Of a stretch of DNA of 64,000 nt, positions 1,981 to 57,642 are shown piece after piece; the first letter of the stretch is position 1, and each line of letters opens with the position of its first letter. The stretch is from assembly GCF_001975725.1 (NCBI RefSeq), contig NZ_CP019434.1, positions 620,001 through 684,000 of the forward strand, written 5' to 3'. Source of the stretch: Acidihalobacter ferrooxydans. Lineage in GTDB: Bacteria > Pseudomonadota > Gammaproteobacteria > DSM-5130 > Acidihalobacteraceae. The notes under the pieces are model-generated. The model saw only the letters and a list, made by a program, of their open reading frames with translations, was not told the DNA's origin and did not search any database. The position numbers and the translations under genes were made by a program.

Positions 1981-2004
1981 CGTGTTCTCCTCCATGATGT
2001 ATCC

Positions 2005-2165
2005 AGGGTCTGCCGGATTGAGCAAAAAGGCACTGCGCGGTGGGATAAAGGGGGCGACAAATCACTCTTCTCGCCGGATAGAGGCATCACTTTTCTCAAA
2101 AAAGCGGAAAACAGGTCTTTATTCCCACGCACCTCGTTACCGTCCGATCAGTTCGACAGATTCCC
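2005..2165 (+). repeat. Dispersed repeat family B, copy B1 (degenerate, near full length)
   Basis: The left end AGGGTCTGCCGGATTGAGCA and right end CAGTTCGACAGATTCCC align with the family B termini AGGAGCCTGTCGGACTTGGA and CCAAGTCCGACAGGCTCCT. The interior GGGATAAAGG...CGCCGGATAGAG...TTTTCTCAAAAAA follows the same order as the intact copies at 39393 and 57418. It directly precedes the start of the binding-protein gene. Confidence 0.6.
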
Positions 2166-2331
2166 ATGTTTTTTAGTGGTTGAAGCACGCCGCGTGCGGC
2201 AGTATTTCCCCGCGTTCTGCTGTGCGCGGGTCGTGGGATTTCAAATGCATCCGAAGTGTAGCTCATCATGCCAGTGTGTCCAGTCATGGACGATGGCGGA
2301 TGCTGGATAACCCGGTGGCGCCGTTCGCTTG

Positions 2332-24969: not shown

Positions 24970-26154
24970 ATGAGTCAGGATGTCTACATTGTCGCCGCGC
25001 GACGCACGCCGGTCGGCAAGGCCCCGCGCGGCGTATTCCGCCGAACCCGCCCGGACGATCTGCTGGCACACGCGCTGCGCATCACGCTGGCCGATTGCCC
25101 CGGACTCGATCCGGCCGAGATCGGCGACGTGATTGTCGGTTGCGCGATGCCCGAGGGCGAGCAGGGCATGAATGTCGCGCGCATCGCCGCACTGCTGGCC
25201 GGGTTGCCGGACAGTGTGCCGGGGATGACGATCAACCGTTTCTGCTCATCGGGCTTGCAGGCCATCGCCCAGGCCGCCGACCGCATCCGTCTCGGTGAGG
25301 CGGATGTCATGGTCGCCGGCGGGGTCGAGAGCATGAGTATGGTGCCGATGGGCGGTAACAAGCTGTCGATCAATCCGGCTATTTTTACCGATGAACACGT
25401 CGCCATCGCCTACGGCATGGGGATTACCGCCGAGAATGTGGCGAAGCGCTGGAAAGTGAGCCGCGAGGCGCAAGATGCCTTCGCGCTGCGCAGCCATCAG
25501 CGCGCGCTGGCGGCGCGTGAGGCAGGTCTGTTCGACGCCGAGATGGCGCCGTTCACCGTGGTTGCACACCTGCCCGGCGCAGACGGTGCGGTGCGGCAGA
25601 TCGAGACCGTGGTGCGCCAGGACGAAGGTCCGCGCGCGGACACCAGCGCGCAGGCGCTGGCCCGCTTGCGGCCGGCGTTCGCGCAGACCGGCTCGGTGAC
25701 CGCGGGTAACAGCTCGCAGACTTCCGATGGCGCGGGCGCCGTGGTGCTGATGAGCGAGAAACGCATGCACGCGCTCGGCCTGGAGCCGCTGGCGCGGTTC
25801 GTCGGCTACGCGGTGGCCGGCGTGCCGCCGGAGATCATGGGCATCGGCCCGATCAAGGCGATTCCGAAGGCGCTGCACAATACCGGCGTGAAGCTGGCGG
25901 ACATGGACTGGATCGAGCTTAACGAGGCGTTCGCCGCACAGTCGCTGGCCGTGATTCGCGAAGTCGGGCTCGACGAGGACAAGGTCAATCCGCTGGGCGG
26001 CGCGATTGCGCTCGGCCATCCGCTGGGCGCGACCGGCGCCATCCGCACGGCCACGCTGCTGCACGGCCTGCGCCGCACCGGGGGGCGTTACGGCATGGTC
26101 ACCATGTGTATCGGTACGGGTATGGGCGCCGCGGGGATTTTCGAGCGATGCTGA
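24970..26154 (+). CDS. fadA: Acetyl-CoA C-acyltransferase (thiolase)
   Basis: 394 residues. The nucleophilic Cys is in MTINRFCSSGLQAIAQAADR (about residue 91); the second active-site stretch is NEAFAAQSLAVIRE; the general base Cys and His lie in IALGHPLGATGAIRT and MCIGTGMGAAGIFE. It cleaves 3-ketoacyl-CoA with CoA to release acetyl-CoA. ATG 24970 has GAGGAG upstream. It completes the fadE-fadN-fadA set. A family B repeat follows immediately, before fadD. Confidence 0.95.
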   Translation: MSQDVYIVAARRTPVGKAPRGVFRRTRPDDLLAHALRITLADCPGLDPAEIGDVIVGCAMPEGEQGMNVARIAALLAGLPDSVPGMTINRFCSSGLQAIAQAADRIRLGEADVMVAGGVESMSMVPMGGNKLSINPAIFTDEHVAIAYGMGITAENVAKRWKVSREAQDAFALRSHQRALAAREAGLFDAEMAPFTVVAHLPGADGAVRQIETVVRQDEGPRADTSAQALARLRPAFAQTGSVTAGNSSQTSDGAGAVVLMSEKRMHALGLEPLARFVGYAVAGVPPEIMGIGPIKAIPKALHNTGVKLADMDWIELNEAFAAQSLAVIREVGLDEDKVNPLGGAIALGHPLGATGAIRTATLLHGLRRTGGRYGMVTMCIGTGMGAAGIFERC

Positions 26155-26156
26155 CC

Positions 26157-26301
26157 CGGATGGGCGTGGCAAGGCGCATGAGCAATGGAGGCTGGTTTCC
26201 CGATTGTTTGACAAGAGCGGTTCCATGCGGCGAGTAGAGCGGGGCAATGTCCCCATGACTTCATCGCCGCAGTCGATACATTCCAGGTCCGACAGGCTCC
26301 T
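26157..26301 (-). repeat. Dispersed repeat family B, copy B3
   Basis: Reads GAGCAATGGAGGCTGGTTTC, GACAAGAGCGGTTCCATGCG, TCATCGCCGCAGTCGATACA and ends TTCCAGGTCCGACAGGCTCCT. This follows family B in reverse orientation with an eroded left end. It fills the gap between the thiolase and fadD genes, so readthrough into fadD would cross it. Confidence 0.7.
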
Positions 26302-26322
26302 GGGCGCGATGAGGTAACGGCC

Positions 26323-35538: not shown

Positions 35539-35696
35539 GGTCTTTCCGCCTGTGTCGTTAGAAAAGCGTGTTGCCCGTTATGACCGGGCTATGCGTTGAT
35601 CATAGCAAAGCCGTCTGCTAAAGACCCATGATCCTGCCGCGGTTGCCGCTAGCGACGCTACAATTGGAGGCTTTCAAGCATCGCTCTGGTTATCCA

Positions 35697-36983
35697 ATGA
35701 AGAAAAACATTCTCTACGCCCAGTCCGGCGGCGTGACTGCTGTCATCAATGCTTCGGCCTGCGGGGTCGTTGAAACCGCGCGGCGCTGGCCTGATGTGTT
35801 CGGCGGCGTGTTTGCGGCCCGCGACGGGATCGCCGGCGTGCTCGACGAGGCTTTGTATGACCTGGCCGGCGAGACCGCGCAGGCCATTGCCGGTCTGCGC
35901 CACCGGCCGGGCGGAGCGTTCGGCTCCTGCCGCCTCGACCTCGATCCATACGCGACGCATCGGCACGAATACGAGCGCGTACTGGAGGTGTTCGCCGCGC
36001 ACGACATTGGTCACTTTCTCTACAACGGCGGCGGCGGATCGATGCTGACCGCAACCCGGTTGGCGCAGGCAGCGGCTGACATGGGCTATCCGCTCGACGT
36101 CATCGGCATTCCGAAGACGATCGACAACGATCTCTACGACACCGACACGAGCCCTGGGTTTGGCTCGGCGGCCAAGTACGTGGCGGTGTCCACGCGCGAG
36201 GCGGCCTGCGATGTGGCCTCGATGCAGGCCACATCGACCAAGGTGTTCATTCTTGAAGTGATGGGGCGCAATGCTGGCTGGCTCGCGGCGGCCGGCGGCC
36301 TTGCCGAGCGTGATGCCGGCGAGTTGCCGCTGGTGTTGTTGTTTGCCGAGCGCGCTTTCGATGCCGAGCGTTTCGCCGCGGCGGTGCGCGAACGGGTCGA
36401 GCATGCAGGCTATTGTGTGGTGGTGGCCAGCGAAGGCATGCGCGATGGGCAGGGCGAGTATCTGTCCGTGCGCCAGAAGAGCACGGTGCGTGGTTGGACG
36501 CGGCTTGGCGGCGTGGCGGCGCAGTTGGCGGAGCTGGTCAGGATGCGGCTGGGTTATCGAACGCACTGGGCCGTGTCCGACTATTTGCAGCGCGCGGCGC
36601 GGCATATAGCCTCGCAGACCGATGTCGAGCAGGCTTATGCGGTTGGGCGCGCAGCGGTCGAGCTTGCCCGGCAGGGACGCAGCGGCGTCATGGTCACCTT
36701 GCGCCGGCTGACCGATGAGCCCTATGGCTGGGAAACCGGCGCAACCGACCTGCAGGCCATCGCCGACCGCGAGCGTGGAGTGCCCGACGAATTCATCAGT
36801 GCGGACGGTTTTGGCATCACGCCGCTGGCGCGGCGTTATCTGCGCCCCTTGATCACAGGCGAGGCGTACCCGCCGTTTCGTGACGGCGTGCCGGAGTACC
36901 CTGCGTTGCGCCACACGCTGCGCGCGCGGCGCCTGCCTCAGTACACGCCGCGTTCGGGCGATTACTATGGCACGGTGGCGTGA
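35697..36983 (+). CDS. 6-phosphofructokinase family, diphosphate-dependent-like
   Basis: 428 residues, the length of methylotroph-type PPi-PFKs. ILYAQSGGVTAVINASACGV is the first nucleotide loop; IGHFLYNGGGGSMLTATRLA, DVIGIPKTIDNDLYDTDTSPGFGSAAKY (catalytic TIDND with the Lys typical of PPi enzymes) and EVMGRNAGWLAAAGGLA follow. The phosphate-donor loop reads GGGGS, whereas ATP enzymes have GGDGS and most PPi enzymes GGDDS or GGGDS, so donor choice is unclear. It phosphorylates fructose 6-phosphate; PPi forms are reversible. The start is the ATG preceding KKNILY, with a weak ribosome site. Confidence 0.88.
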   Translation: MKKNILYAQSGGVTAVINASACGVVETARRWPDVFGGVFAARDGIAGVLDEALYDLAGETAQAIAGLRHRPGGAFGSCRLDLDPYATHRHEYERVLEVFAAHDIGHFLYNGGGGSMLTATRLAQAAADMGYPLDVIGIPKTIDNDLYDTDTSPGFGSAAKYVAVSTREAACDVASMQATSTKVFILEVMGRNAGWLAAAGGLAERDAGELPLVLLFAERAFDAERFAAAVRERVEHAGYCVVVASEGMRDGQGEYLSVRQKSTVRGWTRLGGVAAQLAELVRMRLGYRTHWAVSDYLQRAARHIASQTDVEQAYAVGRAAVELARQGRSGVMVTLRRLTDEPYGWETGATDLQAIADRERGVPDEFISADGFGITPLARRYLRPLITGEAYPPFRDGVPEYPALRHTLRARRLPQYTPRSGDYYGTVA

Positions 36984-36991
36984 AACATTCG

Positions 36992-37258
36992 GGTTAAGGA
37001 CAATAGGGCGTCTATTCGACGAACCAGGAGCCTGTCGGACTTGGAGAATCGTAGCGAGGCGAGTGGGGAATGGAGGCCAGTTTCACGGTCTTTTGAGGAC
37101 AATAGTGGTTCTATTCGACGAAAAAGAGCGAGGTGTGGGCACATTATCCCACCGCCGCAGCCGATTCTTTCCAAGTCCGACAGGCTCCTAGGTCGGGGAA
37201 ATAGGCTTATTATTTCGCCGTCGCAGTCGATTCGTTCCAGGTTCGACGGGTTCCAGGG
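36992..37258 (-). repeat. Nested family B repeats: intact copy B5 (37026-37189) inside an older copy
   Basis: B5 runs from AGGAGCCTGTCGGACTTGGA to CCAAGTCCGACAGGCTCCT, 164 bp with near-perfect 20-bp terminal inverted repeats. The left flank, TTAAGGACAATAGGGCGTCT then ATTCGACGAA, is the interior of another B copy, and the right flank, TTTCGCCGTCGCAGTCGATT then CGTTCCAGGTTCGACGGGTT, is its end. The older copy is therefore split by B5, both in the same orientation. This fills the gap between the PFK and rnfB genes. Confidence 0.85.
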
Positions 37259-37342: not shown

Positions 37343-38110
37343 ATGACACTGTATGTGCTGTTTTTTTGCGTGATCGTGTTGCTTGGAGCGGCCATTTCAG
37401 GTGTCGTGCTCGTGCAACGCCACCGTGAGCGGCAGCGGCCGCTGGCCGAGCGTATTGACGACATTCTCCCGCAGACTCAATGCGGGCAGTGCGGGTATCC
37501 GGGGTGTCGCCCGTATGCCGAAGCGCTGGCCAGCGGCGCTGCCGACCTCAATCAATGTCCGCCGGGCGGCGACGCCGGTATCCGCAGGCTCGCCCGGGTG
37601 TTGAACCGCGCGCCCAAACCGCTGGACACAACGCATGGCGAGCATAAGCCCCAACTTCTCGCGCGCATCGACGAAAGTGTCTGCATCGGTTGCACGCTAT
37701 GCATCCAGGCCTGCCCGGTAGATGCGATTCTGGGCGCACCCAAGCTGATGCATACCGTGATCGAAGCCGAATGCACGGGCTGCGAACTGTGCCTGCCGCC
37801 TTGCCCGGTCGATTGCATCGAGCTGATTGCGGCAGAGCCGGAGCGTGGCCGGTTGCCGTCGTTCGGGGTGCCCCGTGCCGAGCGGCGCAAGGCAGCACAT
37901 GCGCGCGCACGCTATCAGGCTCGGCTGCGGCGGCTAGCCGCCGAACAGGAGGACAAGCAGACGCGTCGCCAGCGCAAACTCAAGCCGACCGTTCAGGTGG
38001 GTGAAGACCCGCGCAAGGCGGCGATCGCGGCTGCTATTGAGCGCACCCGCGCCAAAAAACGCGCTGCGAGGGTGTCCGCGGCATCATCGATCTTTTCCGA
38101 TGAGGGTTGA
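37343..38110 (+). CDS. rnfB: RnfB-type electron transport protein (standalone)
   Basis: 255 residues. One N-terminal membrane helix ([20 protein letters not shown]), then the 4Fe-4S domain [21 protein letters not shown] with NQCPPGG, then two ferredoxin clusters, [15 protein letters not shown] and [15 protein letters not shown], and a long basic, helical tail rich in Arg and Ala. RnfB feeds electrons from NADH or ferredoxin through the Rnf complex, but no rnfA, C, D, G or E is present here. The rnfB-nth neighbourhood is common in gammaproteobacteria. This copy may be a remnant or serve another membrane redox chain. Confidence 0.93.
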
Positions 38111-39058: not shown

Positions 39059-39394
39059 GTGCCGCACGACCGCGCCGCGCTGGAGGCATTGCCGGGCGTC
39101 GGGCGGAAGACGGCCAACGTGATTCTCAATACGGCGTTTGGCGAACCGACTATCGCCGTCGATACACACATCTTTCGCGTTGCGAACCGTACCGGCATCG
39201 CACCGGGCAAGAATGTGCAGGAAGTGGAAAAGCGCCTGCTGCGTCTGGTGCCAGCCGAATTTCGCCTAGACGCACATCATTGGCTGATTCTGCACGGGCG
39301 CTATGTGTGTACCGCGCGCGCACCTAAATGTGCATCATGTCCGATCAACGATTTGTGTGAGTATCGCGGAAAAAGCCCGCGAGCAGACTCATAG
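39059..39394 (+). pseudogene. nth: Endonuclease III, C-terminal part with catalytic site and 4Fe-4S cluster
   Basis: 111 codons directly following the TAA, beginning with GTG. It has LEALPGVGRKTANVILNTAF (helix-hairpin-helix and catalytic Lys), AVDTHIFRVANRTG (catalytic Asp) and the cluster ligands of CTARAPKCASCPINDLC. All catalytic parts of the DNA glycosylase/AP lyase are here, but the six-helix barrel is missing half. No ribosome site precedes the GTG, yet TAAGTG would permit reinitiation. The stop codon TAG (39392-39394) straddles the junction with repeat B6. Confidence 0.85.
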
Positions 39395-39556
39395 GAGCCT
39401 GTCGGACTTGGAAAGAAGCGGCTGCGGCGATGGGATAATGGGCCCACCCCACGCTCTTTTTCGTCGAATAGAACCACTATTGTCCTCAAAAGACCGTGAA
39501 ACTGGCCTCCATTCCCCACTCGCCTCGCTACGATTCTCCAAGTCCGACAGGCTCCT
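39393..39556 (+). repeat. Dispersed repeat family B, copy B6 (intact)
   Basis: 164 bp from AGGAGCCTGTCGGACTTGGA to CCAAGTCCGACAGGCTCCT, a perfect 20-bp terminal inverted repeat. The interior is nearly identical to B5 and B7 (GGGATAATGGGCCCAC, TTCGTCGAATAGAACCACTA, GAAACTGGCCTCCATTCCCC). It sits between convergent nth and hflD-like genes and provides the stop codons of both. Confidence 0.9.
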
Positions 39557-40211
39557 GGCCGAGCAATTGTTCGGCAGCCTTCAGACTCGCGCGCGAAACG
39601 CGCAGAAAAGGCGAACGGCCACCGCCGGCAGCGCGCCATAACCAGGCGGCCCGCACGCCGTACAGCCAGATTACTGCAGCATCCTCGCTGCCCAGAGTAC
39701 GCTGACCGGGCCCTGAGCGCCGGGCCAGGCTGCGTGCGCATATGGCCAGTTCGTGAACCTGACCTGCGTCATCCATTGCCGCCGCACGGTGTAACGCAGT
39801 GCATAGCCCTGCGCGCAGTGTGGCACTGCTGGCTCTGTGCAGGAGCCGTGCCATGCGCAGGTAATCGGCCACCGCATCCAGCACCTGCACATCGCCAAAC
39901 CCGGCGATCGGTTTGGCGACCAGCCTCAGATAACGGCGCAAACCGGAACGCAAGCCGCGTCGCCCTCCCAGTGTTTGCTCTACCGATAAATTTTCACAAG
40001 ACAGGACACTACGCACCGCTGCCGTGCGTACCGCTGGAGGTCGGTGTCTGTTACGGGCGAAGAACGCCGCCTGTACCATCGCCGCCGCACACAACATACG
40101 ATCCCGATCGCCATCGGTCGGCGGAACGCTTACTCGTTTGCGGCGCCCGTAAAGGCGCAGGAGCGCAACGGCCGCACCTGCCAGCATGAGAGATTGCGGA
40201 GCATCGTGCAT
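39528..40211 (-). CDS. hflD: HflD-like lysogenisation regulator homologue, C-terminus altered by a repeat
   Basis: 227 residues as read. Similarity to HflD is clearest at the C-terminal GVRAAWLWRAAGGGRSPFLRVSRASLKAAEQLL, matching E. coli IRAAVLWHQVGGGRLQLMFS, and at MLCAAAMVQAAFFARNR near the family N-terminus. HflD is a small all-helical membrane-associated protein that binds phage CII; its host role is unclear. The last ten residues, GQEPVGLGES, and the stop come from repeat B6. The ATG at 40211 adds about 38 residues over E. coli; ATG 40097 is the alternative start. The usual neighbours mnmA and purB are absent, and repeat A4 lies 20 bp upstream. Confidence 0.68.
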   Translation of the reverse strand: MHDAPQSLMLAGAAVALLRLYGRRKRVSVPPTDGDRDRMLCAAAMVQAAFFARNRHRPPAVRTAAVRSVLSCENLSVEQTLGGRRGLRSGLRRYLRLVAKPIAGFGDVQVLDAVADYLRMARLLHRASSATLRAGLCTALHRAAAMDDAGQVHELAICARSLARRSGPGQRTLGSEDAAVIWLYGVRAAWLWRAAGGGRSPFLRVSRASLKAAEQLLGQEPVGLGES

Positions 40212-57364: not shown

Positions 57365-57417
57365 GGCGGTATCGTCAGTGTGAACCACTCGGTCTGTCAA
57401 CTCCGCCGTTTATTCCT

Positions 57418-57581
57418 AGGAGCCTGTCGGACTTGGAAAGAATCGACTGAGGCGATGGGATAATGGGCCCACACCCCGCTCGTTTTCGTCGAATAGAACC
57501 ACTATTGTTCTCAAAAGAGCGAGAAACTGGCCTCCATTCCCCACTCGCCTCGCTACGATCCTCCAAGTCCGACAGACTCCG
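57418..57581 (+). repeat. Dispersed repeat family B, copy B7 (near intact)
   Basis: 164 bp from AGGAGCCTGTCGGACTTGGA to CCAAGTCCGACAGACTCCG, nearly identical inside to B6. It separates the histidine kinase gene from its likely response regulator. Confidence 0.9.
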
Positions 57582-57642
57582 AGACCCGACGAGACCGTGG
57601 CGTGAGAGGCGCTTCGGCCTGCCGTCGCATGTCAGGAATGCT

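Follow-up and report, generated by a model that had tools for sequence, protein, structure and literature searches.

A repeat of family B lies between two genes of Acidihalobacter ferrooxydans, enclosed by sequence that resembles it, which raises the question of whether one mobile element has inserted into another of its own kind, and in what order the parts of this locus came together. The window, i.e. the whole stretch of 64 kb that was analysed, contains three intact B copies (~160 bp) and several diverged ones. The locus is bounded on the left by a pfp-like gene (diphosphate--fructose-6-phosphate 1-phosphotransferase; 35628-36983, + strand; NCBIfam NF010675, 557.9 bits), whose C-terminus was aligned with that of four relatives, and on the right by rnfB (37343-38110, + strand; TIGR01944, 224 bits), which together with the following genes is syntenic in relatives. 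A first-pass annotation had placed an intact B copy at 37026-37189, and comparison with a consensus of the 30 best genomic copies affirmed this assignment (96% identity). Between the target duplicates, this inner copy comprises 160 bp on the + strand (37028-37187) with the ends GAGCCTGTCGGACTTGG and CCAAGTCCGACAGGCTC, is 95.8% identical to the consensus, reaches 148 bits with the covariance model, and has a DNA fold with a z of -10.8. It is preceded by CCAG (37024-37027, + strand), one change from CTAG, and followed by CTAG (37188-37191, + strand), the two target duplicates differing by one base.

Diverged B pieces in correct order and orientation surround the inner copy, as annotated, but they are not the halves of a whole copy: the outer B is represented by consensus positions 70-166 only, and positions 1-69 are absent. 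Its left remnant (36994-37023, + strand) corresponds to consensus 70-99 (26/30 identical). The right remnant (37192-37256, + strand) ends in its own decayed terminal CTAG (CCAG, 37253-37256) and shows 47 of 61 identical positions over 37194-37254, equivalent to consensus 106-166.

When the flanks were rejoined without the inner B (37028-37187) and with one of the two tetramers taken out, a check that the first-pass annotation had suggested, they aligned continuously and without gaps with consensus positions 70-166. This alignment of 97 columns, 75 of them identical (77.3%), scored 84, compared to a maximum of 25 among 1802 random segments of the window. None of the bases of the outer B is missing at the insertion point, where consensus position 99 is followed by position 100 on the same strand. 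Upon stepwise removal of 0 to 8 bp, zero gaps were obtained at 4 bp only. Removal of 2 bp yielded a score of 87 with two gaps, slightly above the gapless 4-bp solution, so that 4 bp is favoured by register and not by score. The claim that the outer copy is more diverged, and hence older, also held, with 77.3% identity to the consensus versus 95.8% for the inner copy. Nesting by itself proves the order, and this divergence agrees with it.

A second nest of B within B is situated at contig positions 2019100-2019700 (L163), where the intact inner B is reversed and the old outer copy is nearly complete. Rejoining of its flanks resulted in the best score (93) and zero gaps at exactly 4 bp, and the alignment was gapless at this step only. 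At a third place (L030), a B copy resides inside a family-A element, at a CTAG belonging to A, and the best score was again obtained at 4 bp. Throughout the genome, CTAG-like tetramers border the B copies; the left boundaries are exactly CTAG in 18 of 30 cases and one base off in most of the others. B thus shows the target-site duplication of a MITE, here of 4 bp and CTAG-like, with three nests restored at this length. Given the zero-gap register at 4 bp, the genome-wide CTAG-like bounds, and the same rule arrived at independently in L163 and L030, the nest is best explained by a B copy having transposed into an older one, which supports the earlier reading of the nest as evidence of mobility. 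The relatives searched, one congener and three members of the family, offer no empty orthologous site, as pfp and rnfB are unlinked in all of them; the insertion was therefore reconstructed from paralogous copies.

Neighbouring B copies, which in tandem or adjoining position do exist in this genome (L150, L155), could instead have been joined by recombination, slippage or tandem duplication, leaving the apparent halves as chance fragments. However, adjoining copies would not give flanks that are contiguous from 99 to 100, lie on the same strand and carry a 4-bp duplication, which makes such an origin very improbable. We give marginally less credence still to the idea that the inner B replaced a palindrome instead of inserting with target duplication, as described for IS1272, a member of the IS1182 family that takes the place of stem-loops and leaves no duplications (PMC5678879). 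The outer B is itself a stem-loop, and members of the IS1182 family are heterogeneous, yet no outer bases were lost, 4-bp duplicates are present in three nests, and two IS1182 copies of other genomes (L198 and L208) have CTAG on their flanks. Stem-loop replacement of the IS1272 type was rejected for the nest, with its 4-bp duplicates and nothing lost at the insertion point.

Insertion of B into B leaves the left edge of the outer copy to be accounted for. This edge reads TGAAACATTCGGGTTAA-GGACAATAG, and its first 17 bases constitute an end of family A. The A end (TGAAACATTCGGG plus TTAA; 36981-36997, + strand) is identical to the A terminus at 17/17 positions (18 nt including 36980), and the remainder of the A copy is missing. 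Its first three bases form the stop codon TGA of pfp, and the first four bases of the outer B left remnant double as the A target site. Within two mismatches, the A-end pattern has 99 occurrences in the genome (reversed control, 0), and the ends often form inverted pairs separated by about 150 bp; an A element is ~168 bp long when its target tetramers are counted, and it has no transposase gene. An A/B junction of this kind exists at two genome places only, the nest and L147 (contig 847300-848000). At L147 an intact A, bordered by TTAA at either end, interrupts a B copy at the very position where the A remnant meets B in the nest. The identical junction at a second place would fit an older composite that was copied, the outer B having arrived already with A. 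However, the L147 copy lacks a B stretch that the outer copy of the nest keeps, no third composite was found, and it is enough to assume that A inserted twice, each time at this TTAA-like site. The difference between the two B copies thus favours separate insertions over a copied composite, which we consider unlikely. The locus records at least three layered events, namely an old B, insertion of A into it with loss on the left side, and insertion of B into B. The truncation of the outer copy and the third event, A insertion plus sequence loss at the left edge, had been overlooked in the earlier reading.

The congener and three further members of the family agree with the window in the genes that precede pfp and in those that come after rnfB, but in them pfp and rnfB are apart from each other. 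Shortly after pfp, all four of these relatives have a reading frame of one kind starting M..(A/T)LLGTGLMG, which was translated fully in two of them and encodes a 6PGDH-like reductase, as named from reading of the sequence. A protein search with the 6PGDH-like protein of the congener gave no match in the A. ferrooxydans genome, an empty answer that is weak when taken alone. The linkage of pfp to rnfB together with the apparent lack of the post-pfp gene in the genome places the nest at a break in gene order, for which A or B is a plausible cause.

The B end sequence occurs 256 times within 3 mismatches in the 3.45-Mb contig, versus 6 times for the reversed pattern. Near full-length copies scored at ≥90% identity number 40, and the 30 best copies share a mean pairwise identity of 94.8%. 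With 160 bp, no coding capacity, inverted ends of ~20 bp and many dispersed copies, B has the form of a MITE. The window further includes intact B copies at 39391-39558 (- strand, covariance model 142 bits) and 57416-57583 (- strand, 145 bits), within which the repeat unit itself spans 39393-39556 and 57418-57580, and old diverged copies at 26139-26303 (+ strand, 33 bits, E 3e-6) and 2004-2167 (- strand, 30.5 bits, E 1e-5). The stop codon (39392-39394) of ORF 39059-39394 is the TAG in the CTAG duplicate of the B copy at 39391-39558, whose insertion may have fixed the end of this ORF. Elsewhere in the genome, shortened B-type elements retain both ends with the interior deleted or rearranged (L151, L152, L162), tandem or adjoining B copies occur, e.g. 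at L150 and L155, and copies of A and B also adjoin at further sites. No match of the B element was detected in plasmid and phage records.

Concerning the transposases that may have moved the two families, the genome's own IS1380 copies have A-like ends, CTAG plus CCCGGATATTTCA, the ends of A being TTAA plus CCCGAATGTTTCA. Two loci with A-like ends (L141 and L142) encode IS1380 transposases (NF033539, 402.8 and 295.9 bits). Having ends in common with IS1380 elements of the same genome, A is best read as a MITE of the IS1380 family. At L142 (transposase 3194777-3195463), the IS1380 copy and a B copy use one common CTAG, with GAGCCT directly after the IS end. The other DDE transposase loci of the genome (L137, L139, L140, L143-L145) have neither A nor B ends.

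An all-against-all comparison of 28 loci from the class, made for a transposase beside B ends, revealed no common ORF. One class locus, L189, carries an IS1182 transposase and led to a candidate helper of B. This IS1182-family transposase beside a B-type end was assigned by NF033551 (334 bits, cut-off 270), and CTAG and B-like ends are present on both sides of the IS. In a second genome, a 60% identical IS1182 transposase also has CTAG and B-like ends on both sides. The full-length, CTAG-flanked IS1182 copies with B-type ends outside A. ferrooxydans (L198 and L208) are autonomous elements that share the ends of B; the genome of A. ferrooxydans itself retains a decayed remnant. Here, the search for an intact IS1182 helper gave broken pieces only, one of which is still preceded by CTAGCAGCTTGTCGGACTT. 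Judged by its ends and target, B is most likely a MITE that an element of the IS1182 type, itself targeting CTAG, would have moved in trans. Since only broken IS1182 pieces were recovered from its own genome, B may no longer be mobile in A. ferrooxydans.

Altogether, it is highly probable that B is a non-autonomous hairpin MITE moved by an IS1182 transposase with a 4-bp CTAG-like duplication, and that A entered an old B, the left side was lost, and a young B entered the remainder. In the proposed course of events, a family-A MITE, with the IS1380 family as putative helper, would have entered the old B at its TTAA/TTGA site. The sequence on the left, namely the greater part of A, positions 1-69 of B and the gene found after pfp in relatives, would then have been lost or moved away, and the younger B would have inserted into the surviving right part of the outer copy. 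The nesting, the 4-bp duplication, the truncation, the A/B junction and the synteny break are directly demonstrated, whereas both helpers, the deletion and its timing with respect to the inner insertion are inferred.

Beyond this genome, the B end TAGGAGCCTGTCGGACTT was found in 69 genomes out of a class-wide sample of 369, and full-length relatives from many genera are 165-169 bp long and 58-91% identical to B. A common hairpin on 23 relatives (168-nt fold) consists of 62 pairs, with standard pairs in 95.8% of cells. Changes on both sides were observed for 38 pairs, and 0 of 500 shuffles reached any of five covariation measures, a control that is inflated by relatedness. When the pairing partners were shifted by one to three columns, a control that retains relatedness, the covariation signal collapsed. 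Moreover, asymmetric internal loops are kept in the alignment (GTAGCGAG versus CGCAGTAG; TTTGAGGCGAATAG versus CTATTTAACGA), which homogenisation of the arms alone would not maintain. Among 299 genomes sampled across the phylum Pseudomonadota, the covariance model detected the element in 52, which belong largely to a single family in a second class. In one family outside the class of the window, many genomes carry several copies of B-type hairpins. Rfam gave no match at the gathering score for 30-45 kb of the window and sub-threshold matches only for six related loci. A literature search with the end sequences did not find the element, which ISfinder may nonetheless catalogue, and nothing was found on IS1182, MITE and CTAG together. 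We tentatively raise the possibility that B-type elements throughout the phylum make up a single family of structured mobile hairpins, whose fold might be kept by selection on the folded strand (ssDNA in transposition, or RNA) and not only by end binding by the transposase.

Nested MITEs are well known and the nest itself is ordinary; the layered history and the covarying hairpin across genera are slightly above routine. Nests yield relative ages and the exact insertion target without a related strain. The three nests described here fix the 4-bp CTAG-like rule and point to the helper family, and mobile debris lies where gene order broke. The wider B-type family offers a test case for why a non-coding element retains a long covarying hairpin over many genera.

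Like B, the REP, ERIC and Correia palindromic repeats are small, palindromic and of high copy number, but they differ from it in ends, length and target duplication, a comparison made from general knowledge and not from alignment. With the IS1182 family (NCBIfam NF033551), B shares the kind of end found beside CTAG on both sides of full-length IS in two other genomes, whereas B lacks a transposase gene and has an interior that does not resemble those of the IS inspected. In contrast to IS1272, B does not replace palindromes. The ends of the genome's own copies of the IS1380 family (NCBIfam NF033539) resemble those of A, which at ~168 bp has no transposase. The bacterial MITEs moved in trans by IS, such as QMITE1 and QMITE2 of Coxiella (PMC5896051; reviewed in PMC10969869), are like B in being at most ~400 bp long and non-coding, with terminal inverted repeats, short direct repeats, a long hairpin and many dispersed copies. 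For QMITE1, no orthologues in other genomes were reported (PMC5896051). B differs from QMITE1 and QMITE2 in its CTAG-like duplication and IS1182-type ends, and in a sequence and structure conserved over many genera.
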